Shown here: one piece after another, positions 35,795-42,320 of the stretch
Position numbering within the stretch: the first letter of the stretch is position 1
Layout of the letters: each line of letters opens with the position of its first letter
From: Clostridia bacterium
Lineage (GTDB): Bacteria; Bacillota; DSM-521; Neomoorellales; SLTJ01
NCBI GenBank assembly: GCA_004347685.1
Contig: SLTJ01000016.1
Location: 1 to 64,000 of the forward strand
Length of the DNA stretch: 64,000 bases
Direction: 5' to 3'
Position numbers and translations under genes: made by a program
The notes under the pieces: generated by a model
The model's input: only the letters and a program-made list of their open reading frames with translations
Databases searched by the model: none
What the model was told of the DNA's origin: nothing

Positions 35795-36323
35795 TTATAC
35801 CACTTCAGCCCTGCGGGAGGAAGGCACTTCTTCTTCCTGTTCCCAGCTCCTTTCCCCTTTCATTTCCAGACCCTCTCCGCGGCCGCTTTCCACGCCTTCA
35901 TTAATATCCCTTATGGCAGCAGCTAAAGCATCTACGCTGTGCGGACCGCCTTCTGCGCAGGTCTGGCATCTGCCTACGCCGGCGCTGTTGTTGCTGTTTT
36001 GGGGAGCCCCGGCCATCCGATCTATTCCTTCGCGGTGATCGGAGCACTCTCCGAGCGTTTCCATGGGGTGGATAATTTCAGCGGCAATGGCGCCGGCTCG
36101 CCTTTCGGCATCCTCTGCGAACTGGATGGTAAAATCGCCGTTCTCGATCTGGACGACCAGAACAGCATGACCTTTTATCACCATATCGAGCAGAGCCGGC
36201 CCAGCGGCGGCTCGCGCCTTGAGGGTGGTCGGCAATGATCACCGGAACGAAGACCAGACCGCAGTTGGGCAGGTTGAGCAGTTGCAGATTAGGTAAAATA
36301 GCAACTTCAGGCGATGGGAGCAA
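35795..36323 (-). pseudogene. Unrecognised gene, probably frameshifted
   Basis: Two overlapping minus-strand frames look like one protein. The upstream frame (from TTG 36323) reads LPNLQLLNLPNCGLVFVPVI followed by IADHPQ. The downstream frame (TTG 36235 to the stop at 35795) continues with AAAGPALLDMVIKGHAVLVV and QIENGDFTIQFAEDAERRAG. The second frame lacks a ribosome binding site of its own, so a frameshift near 36205-36235 is likely. The tail is low in complexity and acidic. No family was recognised. Confidence 0.35.
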
Positions 36324-36885
36324 ATATATCTTCAGCCTCTACTTCCAGCCCGGCCAGCACCAGGGATCTTACGCGGCCGTGTACTTCTGCCCGCTGGTTG
36401 AGAATAAACTTTCCTTCCTGTCCCTGGTGTATCTCGATACTCTTGTCCTCCGGGTCCACCAGCCAGTATTCCTTTACCCCGTGCCGGGCGTAGCTCCGGG
36501 CCTTTTTTTTCAGGTCATAGTAACCAGTGGATGGTGAGATGATCTCCACCACCAGGTCAGGGGCACCGTTTATCCGGGTTTTCTCAATAATATGCAGACG
36601 CCCTCTAGAAATAAAGAGTATGTCTGGCTGGTAAGTTTCTGTCTCTTCCAGGTAAACGTCAATGGGAGCGGTGAAAACCATTCCCAGGTTTTTCTCCCTG
36701 GCAAAAAGATACAGGTATGTCTGTAGGCGTATGCTGATGGCCTGATGAAAGGTACCGGGCGCCGGGGTCATAACCAAATGGCCTCCAATCAGTTGGTAGG
36801 GCGCCCCTTCGGGCAGCAAAACATAATCGGCGTAGGTGTAAACGTCCCGGGGAGGGACAACCATCTCCTTCACCGACATACCCAT
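36307..36885 (-). CDS. Uma2 family (DUF820) endonuclease-like protein
   Basis: A 192-aa protein of the Uma2 family, a restriction-endonuclease-like fold very common in cyanobacteria and some Firmicutes, with unclear biological role. It shows TYADYVLLPEGAPYQLIGG (N-terminal), a TYQPDILFISRGR strand with the family Asp, APDLVVEIISPSTGYYDLKKK and ARHGVKEYWLVDPEDKSIEI. ATG at 36885 has AAAGGAGG upstream. It is an intact paralogue of the pseudogene at 12460-12752. Confidence 0.85.
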   Translation of the reverse strand: MGMSVKEMVVPPRDVYTYADYVLLPEGAPYQLIGGHLVMTPAPGTFHQAISIRLQTYLYLFAREKNLGMVFTAPIDVYLEETETYQPDILFISRGRLHIIEKTRINGAPDLVVEIISPSTGYYDLKKKARSYARHGVKEYWLVDPEDKSIEIHQGQEGKFILNQRAEVHGRVRSLVLAGLEVEAEDIFAPIA

Positions 36886-37224: not shown

Positions 37225-38595
37225 TCAGAGCAACGTGGCGGTTGTGTTGCTTAGCGATCCCAACCGCTTAAAGAACAGTATCCCTTTGGCCGCCCGTTTT
37301 CTGCGCGATACGTTACTGATGGCTTGCAGGTATTCGGTTATTATTTCGTCCCGGATCTCGATTTGGTCGAGAGCAATCCCCCACCCCGCTCCAATCACAA
37401 AACGTGGGAAAGGAAGCACTCTGGTGTACACGATTATTCCCGGCCTGGTGGAAGCGCTCATACTCAGGTCTACCAATCGCAGCTTCCTTTCGCGGACGAT
37501 CAGGTCCTGCAACACTATAAAACTTGAACCGACTTTCTCAATCTGAAAGAGCGAGATAAACGCTTCTTCCATAGCCCGGTAAATCAGCCTGTCCAGGTCC
37601 TCTAGCGGTGGGTTGTTGCGCATGAAGTGCTGGACAATGCTCCTCCCATGTCTTCGCCAGTCATAGAGGGCATGATCCAGCAACAAGGCTTGATCTTCCC
37701 AGCTCTCGAAAACCAGGATGTTTCCCTTACCGAGCATGCCCAGTTCCTTGGCGGCGCCCTCCAGTTCATTGCGCATGATTTCCTTGATCGCCTGAGAATT
37801 GATTACCCTTATTCGTTCCCGCAATCGCCGATACTCTTCAATAAGGGTTTTGTCTTCAGGTGAGGGGAGGTTTGCGTTCCCTTCATTTTCTCCCGCTGCG
37901 TGCGGCAAAGTGATGGACAGGTCACCAGGTGGCAAGTCCTGTTTCAGCGCTTCCGCGATCGCGGCACGCAAACTCTCGTAGCGGGCCCTGCTCACCGCAC
38001 TGATCAATAAGAAGTCCGGGGTCAGTTCCACCGTCCCGAATACTGCGTGCCCAGTATCGGTTTTGACAGCCTCTTTTCCCTTATAATTCCAAAAATAGCT
38101 TGAAGTAGTATCTTTCGACAAGAAAAACTCTCCACACCTTTGCATTGCTGCCACCAGCGCGTCATTCTCGTGCCATGGCTCCCACTTTTCCTCATAAAAC
38201 GCCACCGGAGAATAATAGCCATTCCGTCCAGGATTGGGTGCCACTACCCTCGCGGCTCCAAAGGGTTGGCAACAATGGCCAAAAGCATGCCCGCTGCCAC
38301 AGGGACAGGGGGCTGCCGGTTCTAACGGATGGAAGATCACCATCTGCGCCTTGTCAGCAGAAGTAACATAGACATCCCGCAACTCAAGGAGAACCGTATG
38401 GTAGCCCAAGAATCCGCTCTTGTTTCGTACAAGGTCGCGATTTCTTGCCAGCGCCTCCTCGGTTATCGGTAACTGCCTAGATGGCACTTCAGTTGTCAAC
38501 TTCCTCTCTCCGTGTCGATAAGCCCCGGAAGGTGATCCCTGCTCCTCGCTGCCGGCAGCCAGTTGCTTTTTGGTTTCGTCCTCGACTAAAGCCAC
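37225..38595 (-). CDS. SEC-C motif protein of unknown function
   Basis: A 456-aa protein with a zinc-binding SEC-C motif (CPCGSGHAFGHCC) at about residues 98-110. The rest shows a helical charged middle (EEYRRLRERIRVINSQAIKEIM) and no domain I can name. The GTG at 38595 with GAGGGGAG upstream is chosen; the frame continues upstream to 38730 without conserved features. It lies 186 nt downstream of, and in the same orientation as, the large helicase locus. It might work with it, but there is no direct evidence. Confidence 0.6.
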   Translation of the reverse strand: MALVEDETKKQLAAGSEEQGSPSGAYRHGERKLTTEVPSRQLPITEEALARNRDLVRNKSGFLGYHTVLLELRDVYVTSADKAQMVIFHPLEPAAPCPCGSGHAFGHCCQPFGAARVVAPNPGRNGYYSPVAFYEEKWEPWHENDALVAAMQRCGEFFLSKDTTSSYFWNYKGKEAVKTDTGHAVFGTVELTPDFLLISAVSRARYESLRAAIAEALKQDLPPGDLSITLPHAAGENEGNANLPSPEDKTLIEEYRRLRERIRVINSQAIKEIMRNELEGAAKELGMLGKGNILVFESWEDQALLLDHALYDWRRHGRSIVQHFMRNNPPLEDLDRLIYRAMEEAFISLFQIEKVGSSFIVLQDLIVRERKLRLVDLSMSASTRPGIIVYTRVLPFPRFVIGAGWGIALDQIEIRDEIITEYLQAISNVSRRKRAAKGILFFKRLGSLSNTTATLL

Positions 38596-38781
38596 TCTAG
38601 CTCCCCTCTCTTGTCCATATTCTACCACGTTTGCGGGAATGGGGGCAATACCCCCGGTTGACGAACTGGCCGGGGAATTCCTTCGGGCCGCTGCCCAAGG
38701 GTATGTAATGCAGGATAAGAGAGACAGCACAGCGCAGGCAAAGCCTGCGCCAAGGCTTTAACCACGGGGGTTTTCCCGGTC

Positions 38782-41700
38782 TTATTGAGGGGCGGCCTTG
38801 GCAAGGAGCTTGATACCCCCAGCTCTACCCGGCTCAATACCCATTTCATCAAGAAGTCGCCATAACGGTTCCATCACCTTGCCGGGGTTCCGATAGAAGG
38901 CGCTACCCCTGATACGCCAGAACTTCCAGCCCGCCCTTTCCAGGATCATTTGCCGTGCCCGGTCTTCTTCCCACTTTTCGATGCCGTGCCACTTGTCGCC
39001 GTCACACTCCACCGCGAGCCTGGACCGGAGGCCCTCGATGACCAGATCTATCCGGTATCCCTTCGTGGGTGTGCCCACCCTTACCTGGGGCCGGACGGTG
39101 TAACCCCGAGCGATGATTAGGCGGTAAACGTCGCGCTCGAATTCGGACTCGAAAAGGTGCTCTACCTCTTGCTCCTTTCGGGTGACGCGGGCGGGGTCGA
39201 GGCAGTACTGCAGCAGCCGGGCACGCACGCAGTTGGGGTTGAGATCCTCCAAGCCGACGGAGTGGAATAACCACATCTGGTCCCGCGCCCGGCTGGCCGC
39301 CACGTTGAACCGCTGCATGTCGGAGCGTTTGACCAGGCCACCGATGCGCACGTTGGGGGCCGCTACCATCGAGAGGAACATCACGTCCCGTTCGTCCCCC
39401 TGGAAGGCGTAGGCGTCCCCGCAGACGATCCTGCGGTTTATCATTTCTACTTCGCCCAGTTGCTCCCTCAATAGTTCTTCTATCAGCCGGGCCTGTTCTT
39501 CACCCTGGAGGGAAATCACTCCCATCGTCCTACCAATATATTCCGGCCTCTTGCAAAGCTCGGCTACTTTTTCTACCAGCGCTCTGGCCTCCGGCTCATT
39601 GATTGCCCTGGTCCCTTCATCCCGCCAGCCTTCCGGGACACGCACGGCAAGCACCGGCGGCTCGAGGATTTCGGAAACCTGGGGGAGGCGCAGGGGCTGT
39701 ATCTCGCCTCCGTACATCAGGTCGTTGCTGAACTGGATGATTTCTGGCTCTGAGCGGAAGTGCTCCTTCAGCATCAGGTGGCCGGGGAAGACGATTTGCG
39801 CCATGTCATAGAGGCTGGTCTGCAGGTCAAACCTCCCCGCCTGCGGGATCCCCTGCAGATGGCGCTCCATAAGCTGGTGCACCTGCGACTGCTCGATGCC
39901 GATGGCCTCGGGGCTGATCTGGTTATCATCCCCCACGATCACCGCCTTTTCGGCCCTGAAAAGGAGGGAAAGGCTGAGTATGTCGCTCTGGCTACTTTCG
40001 TCCACGATTACCACGTTAAAACGTTCCCCAGCAGGAGGGAGGTTTTCCAGGATGCGGTGGACTGGCATGATCCAGACAGGCACTGCGTCACGGGCTTCCT
40101 GCATTTCCCTCCTGGCTACCTGGCGGTGCCAATCGGCGTACTTACCGGTGATTTCCGAGACTGCTGGGAAGTACCTGGGCCCGGGCCGGCGGGACTGTAC
40201 CGACGCCGGTTGGCTTAAGTCGCTGCTTCAGACCCTCCGCGCCAACCGGGCTAGGTACGAGCTAAGCAGCATCCAGGGTTATTTCGATGGAATCCGGGAC
40301 TACCTGGCCACCCGGGGCAGCGCCGCCGCGGGAGAATCGTTCCACAACTCCTGGACAGAATTGCTTGCGGCCATGGAGAATAGGGATGCCTCCCGCTGGG
40401 AGGCCGTCCTCCAAGAGTTGCACCGCCTGGCGGCATTAAAGCCGATGCTGCAAGAAAGGGACGCCCTCCTGGACAGGTTGCGTGCCGTATCTCCCCGCTG
40501 GGTCGCCCGTATCCTCGCCCAGGGCGGCCGCGGGGAGCCGCTTTCCCTTCCTGCCGGGTGGCGGAGGGCCTGGACGTGGAGGCGTGCCGACTCATGGTTA
40601 CGCCGCCTGCGGCACGAATACGATGTAGAGGCGATGGAGAACCGGTTACAGGCAGCGCGGGACGAGGAGGCCCGAGTGCTGGCCGAGCTGATCGCCAAGG
40701 AAGTTTGGCTCCACCAGTTGACTCGGGTTACCGAATCCCAGAGACGCAGCCTTCTTGCCTGGGTACAGGCCGTAAGGAAAATCGGTAAGGGGTGTCTTGA
40801 GATGAAAAGTTTTCCGCAATCGTGGATATTGCTTCGTCCAACTCTTTCGTCGAGCGGGCGTCACCACCCAGGAGGCTTACACACAGCGGGGCGATCTGGG
40901 GGGCCTCCTTCTTGAGCTTATCTCCCAGGACCCGTAACGCCCTTTCGGTGTGGCTGGTCACCAGGACCCTCTTCCCGTGGGCCAGCAGGTGGCAGATGAG
41001 GTTGACTATGGTATGGCTCTTGCCCGTGCCAGGAGGGCCCTGCACGACCACCCCGAAATTTCCGGCCGGACGCCTGGCTATTTCCTTTTGTTCCTCATTG
41101 GCCGGAAGGGGGAAAAGCAGATCCTCTCCGAATCCTTGCCATTCTTCCGCCAGGGACTCATCCGGACCCGGCGCGTCTGCGGCGACCAGCGCCGCCAGGG
41201 GGCGCGGTATGGCCATGCCTTGGCGCACTGCCTCTATGATGCCTTGCAGTTCTCTCTGCCACATCGTGCCGGCGCGGCGGCGGAGGAAGATTACAGGGGC
41301 GTGGTATACGGTGGGTACCGGGGGAAAATCCGTCGGGTTGCTCGCCTTGTCCTCCATACTGCACCGGCCGTCGGGGTCAAGGATATGTACCAGTTCAGTC
41401 AGCAAAGGCTCAGCCACCGTCGACTCTCTTGGATCGACGATGTTCTCCTGAAAGGCTCTCTCCCATGTGACTAGTTTATCAAGATTAGGCAGCGAAGGGG
41501 GGAGCATATCCGTCTCCAGGAAGGTCCCCACCTCCGCTGGCACCAAGAAGAAAACCCCTTCAGCAGGATCGAATAATAGTTCTACCCTGGTCACCAGCAG
41601 CGGGCGGCGGACCCGGTAGCCGTCGCACCTCCATGTAAGCAGGCCATGCCCCCAAACGAGTTCGAGCGCTTCCCCTTCCCTCTGTATCCTCTGGTAAAGG

Positions 41701-42320
41701 GTAAAAAGCTGGCTGTAAAGGCGCTGGATTTTTAGCCGGGGGAGGGCCACATCCGCCCAGGGCTGCCATTGTTCCCGGAGCCAGGCATCCCATGCCGCCA
41801 CCCGCTCGGGGGAGTCCTCGAAACGAATCTCCGCCCTTTTTTCAAGCTCCTCCCAGCGAGCATAGGCACTGTCAAGTTCCCTTTGAAGTTCCTGTCGCCG
41901 GCGGTCCGTTTCCTCCAGATCGGCCAGCTCGTTTTCTACTCGCTCCATTAGATCCGGTAATCGATCCAACTCGTTCCGCTCGGATGGTGACAGCTCCTCA
42001 ATTTTCGCCTTGTGTGTGGGCGGTTTGTCCGGCTCGCTACCCGGCCTTTCGATCCACCGTTCAAGGACCTGGGGAACAGGCGGGGGAGGCGGGATGATCT
42101 GCTTATGCACTTCCAGCCAGGCATTAGGATCTTTGCCGGTGCCATGTAGGAAACATCCCTCAGCAGCCGGGAGGTTGAGTTCCCACCACAGGGTGTCACC
42201 GTAATCCGCCACGTCCCTGATAACAGGCACCGCAAGGCTCTTTGCGGCCTGGAGATACTCAAAGACTTGAAGTACCTTCTGGGCCACGTCGCCGACATAG
42301 GACCCTGCTTGTCTCGCCAC
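38782..42320 (-). pseudogene. SF1 helicase with C-terminal Vsr/DUF559-like nuclease, disrupted by an internal inversion
   Basis: The N-terminal part (42320 down to about 40793, about 509 codons) has a coiled-coil region and Walker A GPPGTGKSHT. The C-terminal part (40149 down to 38782) has motif II VIVDESSQ, GDDNQISP, AFQGDERDVMFLSMV, NVAASRARDQMWLF, then a nuclease-like tail RIDLVIEG with LAVECDGDKWHG. The middle of the protein is not encoded on this strand. It is found in the opposite orientation at 40150-40792. Upstream GTG 42320 has AGAAGGTG at 8 nt. As assembled, no full-length product can be made. Confidence 0.75.
40150..40792 (+). other. Inverted central segment of the helicase gene
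   Basis: This plus-strand frame (ending LLAWVQAVRKIGKG at 40792) encodes a long helical segment rich in Leu, Arg and Glu, as expected between helicase motifs I and II. If 40150-40792 is flipped back, the minus strand reads KIGKG then TGKYADWHRQVARREM in frame, restoring a GKGTGK-type sequence. The other junction is left off by one base. Imperfect inverted repeats lie at the two ends (CTTACCGGTGATTT at 40141-40154; its partner is near AAAATCGGTAAG at 40778-40789). Confidence 0.7.

Follow-up and report, generated by a model that had tools for sequence, protein, structure and literature searches.

The window analysed here, a stretch of 64,000 nucleotides of a contig from a Clostridia bacterium (SLTJ01000016.1), carries on its minus strand a large gene for a helicase-nuclease, the middle of which lies in the opposite orientation. 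The parts of this gene are referred to below as N (N-terminal part), M (flipped middle block) and C (C-terminal part), and the segment missing between N and M as D. A slash in a sequence marks a breakpoint. The locus comprises the following features:

38782-42320, minus strand: whole broken gene (helicase-nuclease)
40793-42320, minus strand: N, 509 aa, an open frame from a GTG at 42320, with AAA_11
40792-40793: junction 1, where N meets the far end of the flipped M and where D was lost
40776-40789, plus strand: right arm of an imperfect inverted repeat, GGAAAATCGGTAAG
40150-40792, plus strand: M, 643 bp (about 214-215 codons), open on the plus strand
40141-40156, plus strand: left arm of the imperfect inverted repeat, CTTACCG..GATTTCC
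40149-40150: junction 2, where the start of the flipped M meets C
38782-40149, minus strand: C, 455 aa, with Walker B, AAA_12 and MTES_1575

All three frames were free of stop codons and frameshifts; as the initial annotation had described, N (to 40793) and C (from 40149) were open on the minus strand and the middle frame was open on the plus strand. N ended just past the Walker A motif and the motif following it (QGPPGTGKSHT... LVTSHTERALRVL), could be aligned to homologues up to ...IAENFSSQD, and matched the Pfam domain AAA_11 (E 6e-10). C, whose Walker B motif reads VVIVDESSQSD, matched the helicase domain AAA_12 (E 3e-18) and the Vsr-like nuclease domain MTES_1575 (E 2e-31). Between them, the two parts thus displayed the SF1 helicase domains and the C-terminal MTES_1575 nuclease that define this architecture. 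The GC content of M at the three codon positions (0.66, 0.51 and 0.75) resembled that of its flanks (0.69, 0.43 and 0.67 in N; 0.66, 0.39 and 0.75 in C), and nothing comparable to the plus-strand coding frame was present on the minus strand of M. The plus-strand frame of M is not due to chance.

A genome scan returned 80 homologous loci, to which a search for relatives added more. The closest relative, L023, from an uncultured Thermoanaerobacteraceae bin, shared about 79-80% identity with C and 51% identity with M over 214 aa (E 5e-69). In L023, M stops at base 1004 and C begins at base 1005, within KGTGKYA, and the two share both strand and frame. Indeed, M and C were found on the same strand in all 50 homologous loci carrying both pieces, with a gap of exactly 0 nt between them in 41 of the 50. 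The proposal that 643 bp (40150-40792) are inverted within a helicase-nuclease gene was therefore borne out, the block having a counterpart in full-length homologues that always lies on the strand of C. The breakpoint, placed at 40149/40150 (KIGKG/TGKYA), proved accurate to about one base: the rejoined sequence reads ...AAGGGG/ACCGGTAAG... and that of L023 reads AAAGGG/ACTGGTAAG. Moreover, most aligned homologues exhibited GKG/TGK at the point where M and C meet. No second strain or near-identical copy was found among the relatives, and the genomes of the same family lacked the gene. The sole relative on a viral contig stood at 48%, and every plasmid relative was below 60%. No RNA families were found at the locus.

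At the N side, the initial annotation had recorded that the junction was off by one base. This frame mismatch is real, and it arises because about 1.0 kb, namely D, is missing there, a loss that had been overlooked. In the 47 homologues with all parts, D spanned 328 to 451 aa, with a median of 344 aa (about 1.0 kb); it was present in all well-matched full-length homologues and absent from the window. A shorter, D-less gene as the ancestral form was ruled out, since the well-matched full-length homologues all carry D; a short spacing was confined to remote helicases of smaller size, among them L011, which is 29% identical and does not match M. In the strain's own genome (3.12 Mb, 99% complete), D gave no significant match with the L023 part, the whole L103 segment or a 14-sequence profile. 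As a control, the neighbouring M probe from L023 matched this genome with an E value of 1e-67. The close D probe covers the last third of the segment only (121 aa, L023), and the remainder was searched with distant relatives. That D is gone from the gene is certain; its loss from the rest of the genome is probable, with less certainty. No second copy of the gene was found in the same genome, where, besides itself, the DNA of the locus matched nothing but a 258-bp repeat lying outside the gene.

Imperfect inverted repeats had been reported at both junctions. They do exist, with CTTACCG (40141-40147) pairing with CGGTAAG (40783-40789), and GATTTCC (40150-40156) pairing with GGAAAATC (40776-40783), but they are no more prominent than the inverted repeats that occur by chance elsewhere in the region: a repeat finder with a 12-nt minimum reported five inverted pairs there, the junction pair not being among them. 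The intact coding sequence, GGTAAGGGGACCGGTAAG (KIGKGTGKYA), contains GGTAAG twice in direct orientation, and homologues largely retain it as GKGTGK. The CTTACCG and CGGTAAG arms are a by-product of this coding repeat: the two GGTAAG copies were separated at the breakpoint, and the flip reversed one of them.

With such repeats at its junctions, the locus invites comparison with invertons, which it resembles in having a short inverted segment within a gene and short inverted repeats near the ends of that segment. The initial annotation had accordingly raised the possibility of a reversible switch, that is, a programmed inversion (phase variation) turning the gene on and off. However, un-flipping M leaves a hole of ~340 aa (median 344 aa missing) and an N side that is out of frame, so that neither orientation yields a complete gene. 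This failure of a flip to restore the gene is a strong argument against a switch and sets the locus apart from invertons, as do the missing 1 kb and the origin of the repeats in a coding direct repeat. A crossover at the CTTACCG arms would give KIGKYAD, four residues short of the KIGKGTGKYAD of the relatives, and the rejoined sequence corresponding to the homologues is GGTAAGGGG/ACCGGTAAG, which is not what a crossover between the inverted repeats would leave. Moreover, a single orientation was observed among the relatives (50 out of 50), and no serine recombinase (Resolvase family) was found on the contig of the locus (C11), the 8 matches being on other contigs. Reversible switching is thus highly improbable. 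Scarcely conceivable is a shuffling system in which D would be stored elsewhere, for instance on an element missing from the assembly, with recombination rebuilding the gene when defence is needed. The gene is permanently off and not phase-variable, and the attractive reading as a reversible defence switch is corrected to that of an ordinary null mutation.

The locus is best explained as a natural inversion-deletion null allele, to which we assign a probability of about 0.8. The initial annotation, which had offered a natural inversion switching the gene off, was right about the inversion and the position of its breakpoint, and incomplete with regard to the deletion. From an original order N - D (about 1.0 kb) - M (643 bp) - C, the gene would have passed to N - reversed M - C with D removed. 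A fragment could have been released by a pair of double-strand breaks, one inside D and the other exactly at the boundary of M and C; trimming would then have removed about 1 kb altogether from the two ends at the break in D, and the genome's Ku and end-joining ligase would have sealed the freed fragment in backwards, all in one episode. Both junctions use the same cut point between M and C, with no base lost or gained relative to L023, and at junction 2 the C side starts exactly at the cut of M's other end (GGGG/ACC), as expected if one clean break gave both ends. No shared base was present directly before either junction, in a comparison from which the strain's ancestral D is absent.

In the strain's own genome, a gene for Ku (PF02735, E 4e-57) sits directly beside one for an NHEJ-type ATP-dependent ligase (TIGR02779, 264 bits for a cut-off of 228). 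In Streptomyces, Ku- and ligase-dependent repair produces deletions from 191 bp to more than 23 kb (PMC5869714). The locus shares with NHEJ scars (Ku and LigD) and inversion-deletion pseudogenes its clean novel junctions, a kilobase-scale loss, and Ku and ligase in the genome (PMC5869714); it differs from them in that the freed fragment would also have been reinserted in reverse, by a repair pathway that is itself deduced. We consider end joining a plausible, if unproven, mechanism, with somewhat better than even odds. As for the layout of the repair genes, the Ku gene overlaps a stand-alone 318-aa ligase gene in L110 (positions 290-2073; G000:C7, around 79358-79903), forming a compact two-gene end-joining operon.

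A natural null allele could also have arisen by template switching during replication, in which the fork swaps strands and returns, copying M backwards and skipping D. Inversion with deletion is the natural outcome of such an event, and short inverted matches (GATTTCC and GGAAAATC) are located close to the block's ends. Both switch points would nevertheless have to coincide, base-adjacent, at the boundary of M and C. Furthermore, neither junction resumes at the GATTTCC match, nor at any matching repeats, and junction 2 lacks the 9 nt GGTAAGGGG that should follow GGAAATC; this route is rather unlikely. The same inversion-deletion pattern is itself a warning of a sequencing or assembly artefact, because multiple displacement amplification (MDA) makes inverted chimeras with deletions, an inversion with an intervening deletion accounting for more than 85% of cases (PMC1855051). 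A chimeric junction pair of this kind would mean that the true gene is intact in the cell, which would fit the undecayed frames, and the assembly is a draft in 54 contigs. Yet an artefact needs two independent false junctions 643 bp apart that agree, to the base, on one cut point between M and C. Moreover, ambiguous bases are absent from the window, the junctions have no long repeat that could have misled an assembler, and the searches for D gave no match on other contigs. The assembly, 99% complete in its 54 contigs with 0.16% contamination, is also unlike a typical single-cell amplified genome. An artefact is accordingly quite improbable.

Returning to the natural inversion-deletion, we compared the rates of change of the window's parts with those of L023. 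Against 63 homologues, the mean score was 54 bits for M of the window and 50 bits for M of L023, and 355 and 357 bits, respectively, for C. A long decay of the flipped block was ruled out by this relative-rate comparison. If real, the event would be recent, because the similarity of M and C to homologues matches that of L023 and the frames are free of stops and frameshifts; that the intact appearance reflects an artefact is the less likely reading. Walker A and Walker B now lie on separate, incomplete frames, and about 550 intervening residues are lost from the protein. As the break falls between these two motifs, no helicase can be made. The locus thus offers a well-resolved, apparently recent case of gene scrambling, likely by repair of a double break, in a bacterium whose genome carries both Ku and an end-joining ligase. 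For annotation, it means that 38782-42320 should be given as a single pseudogene rather than split into two or three genes.

The broken gene is an ordinary pseudogene of a large SF1-type helicase that carries a Vsr-like (MTES_1575) nuclease domain at its C-terminus. The same succession of an SF1 helicase and a Vsr-like nuclease is found in the PADLOC candidate PDC-S37, in ProA (NF058533) and in Hhe (NF042953, PDLC02194). PDC-S37 matched both N and C, with an E value of 1.5e-47 in C, where ProA reached 3e-47; the intact relative L103 scored 231 bits with PDC-S37. The scores of C lay far below the cut-offs of ProA (161 bits for 1500) and Hhe (103 bits for 2000), and those of the intact L103 were also below them (238 bits for 1500 and 146 bits for 2000, respectively). 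By these scores, the gene, of which the copy here is broken, is evidently a distant relative of the anti-phage proteins ProA and Hhe and not a member of either family. Its intact relatives are helicase-nucleases that consist of one large protein, and by analogy a defence role of the family may be presumed. A literature search on PDC-S37 found nothing.

Close to the broken gene, a frame at 36307-36885 on the minus strand encodes a Uma2-family putative restriction endonuclease (PF05685; PADLOC candidate PDC-S03). Directly downstream of the broken gene lies a 501-aa frame with one SEC-C motif (37225-38730, minus strand). A 258-bp match (window positions 38526-38781) was observed where the helicase gene ends and this SEC-C gene starts, with about 84-86% identity to three other copies (L002, L003 and L004) on other contigs (C49, C21 and C50). 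In L002 and L003, the repeat adjoins a frame whose product is repetitive and coiled-coil-like. The true start of the SEC-C frame may be later than annotated, because its first ~70 codons lie in this dispersed repeat. Elsewhere, on contigs C15, C49 and C54 of G000 (L113-L115), three serine recombinase genes were found with an identical Pfam score of 115.6 bits, which suggests a repeated mobile element or prophage.
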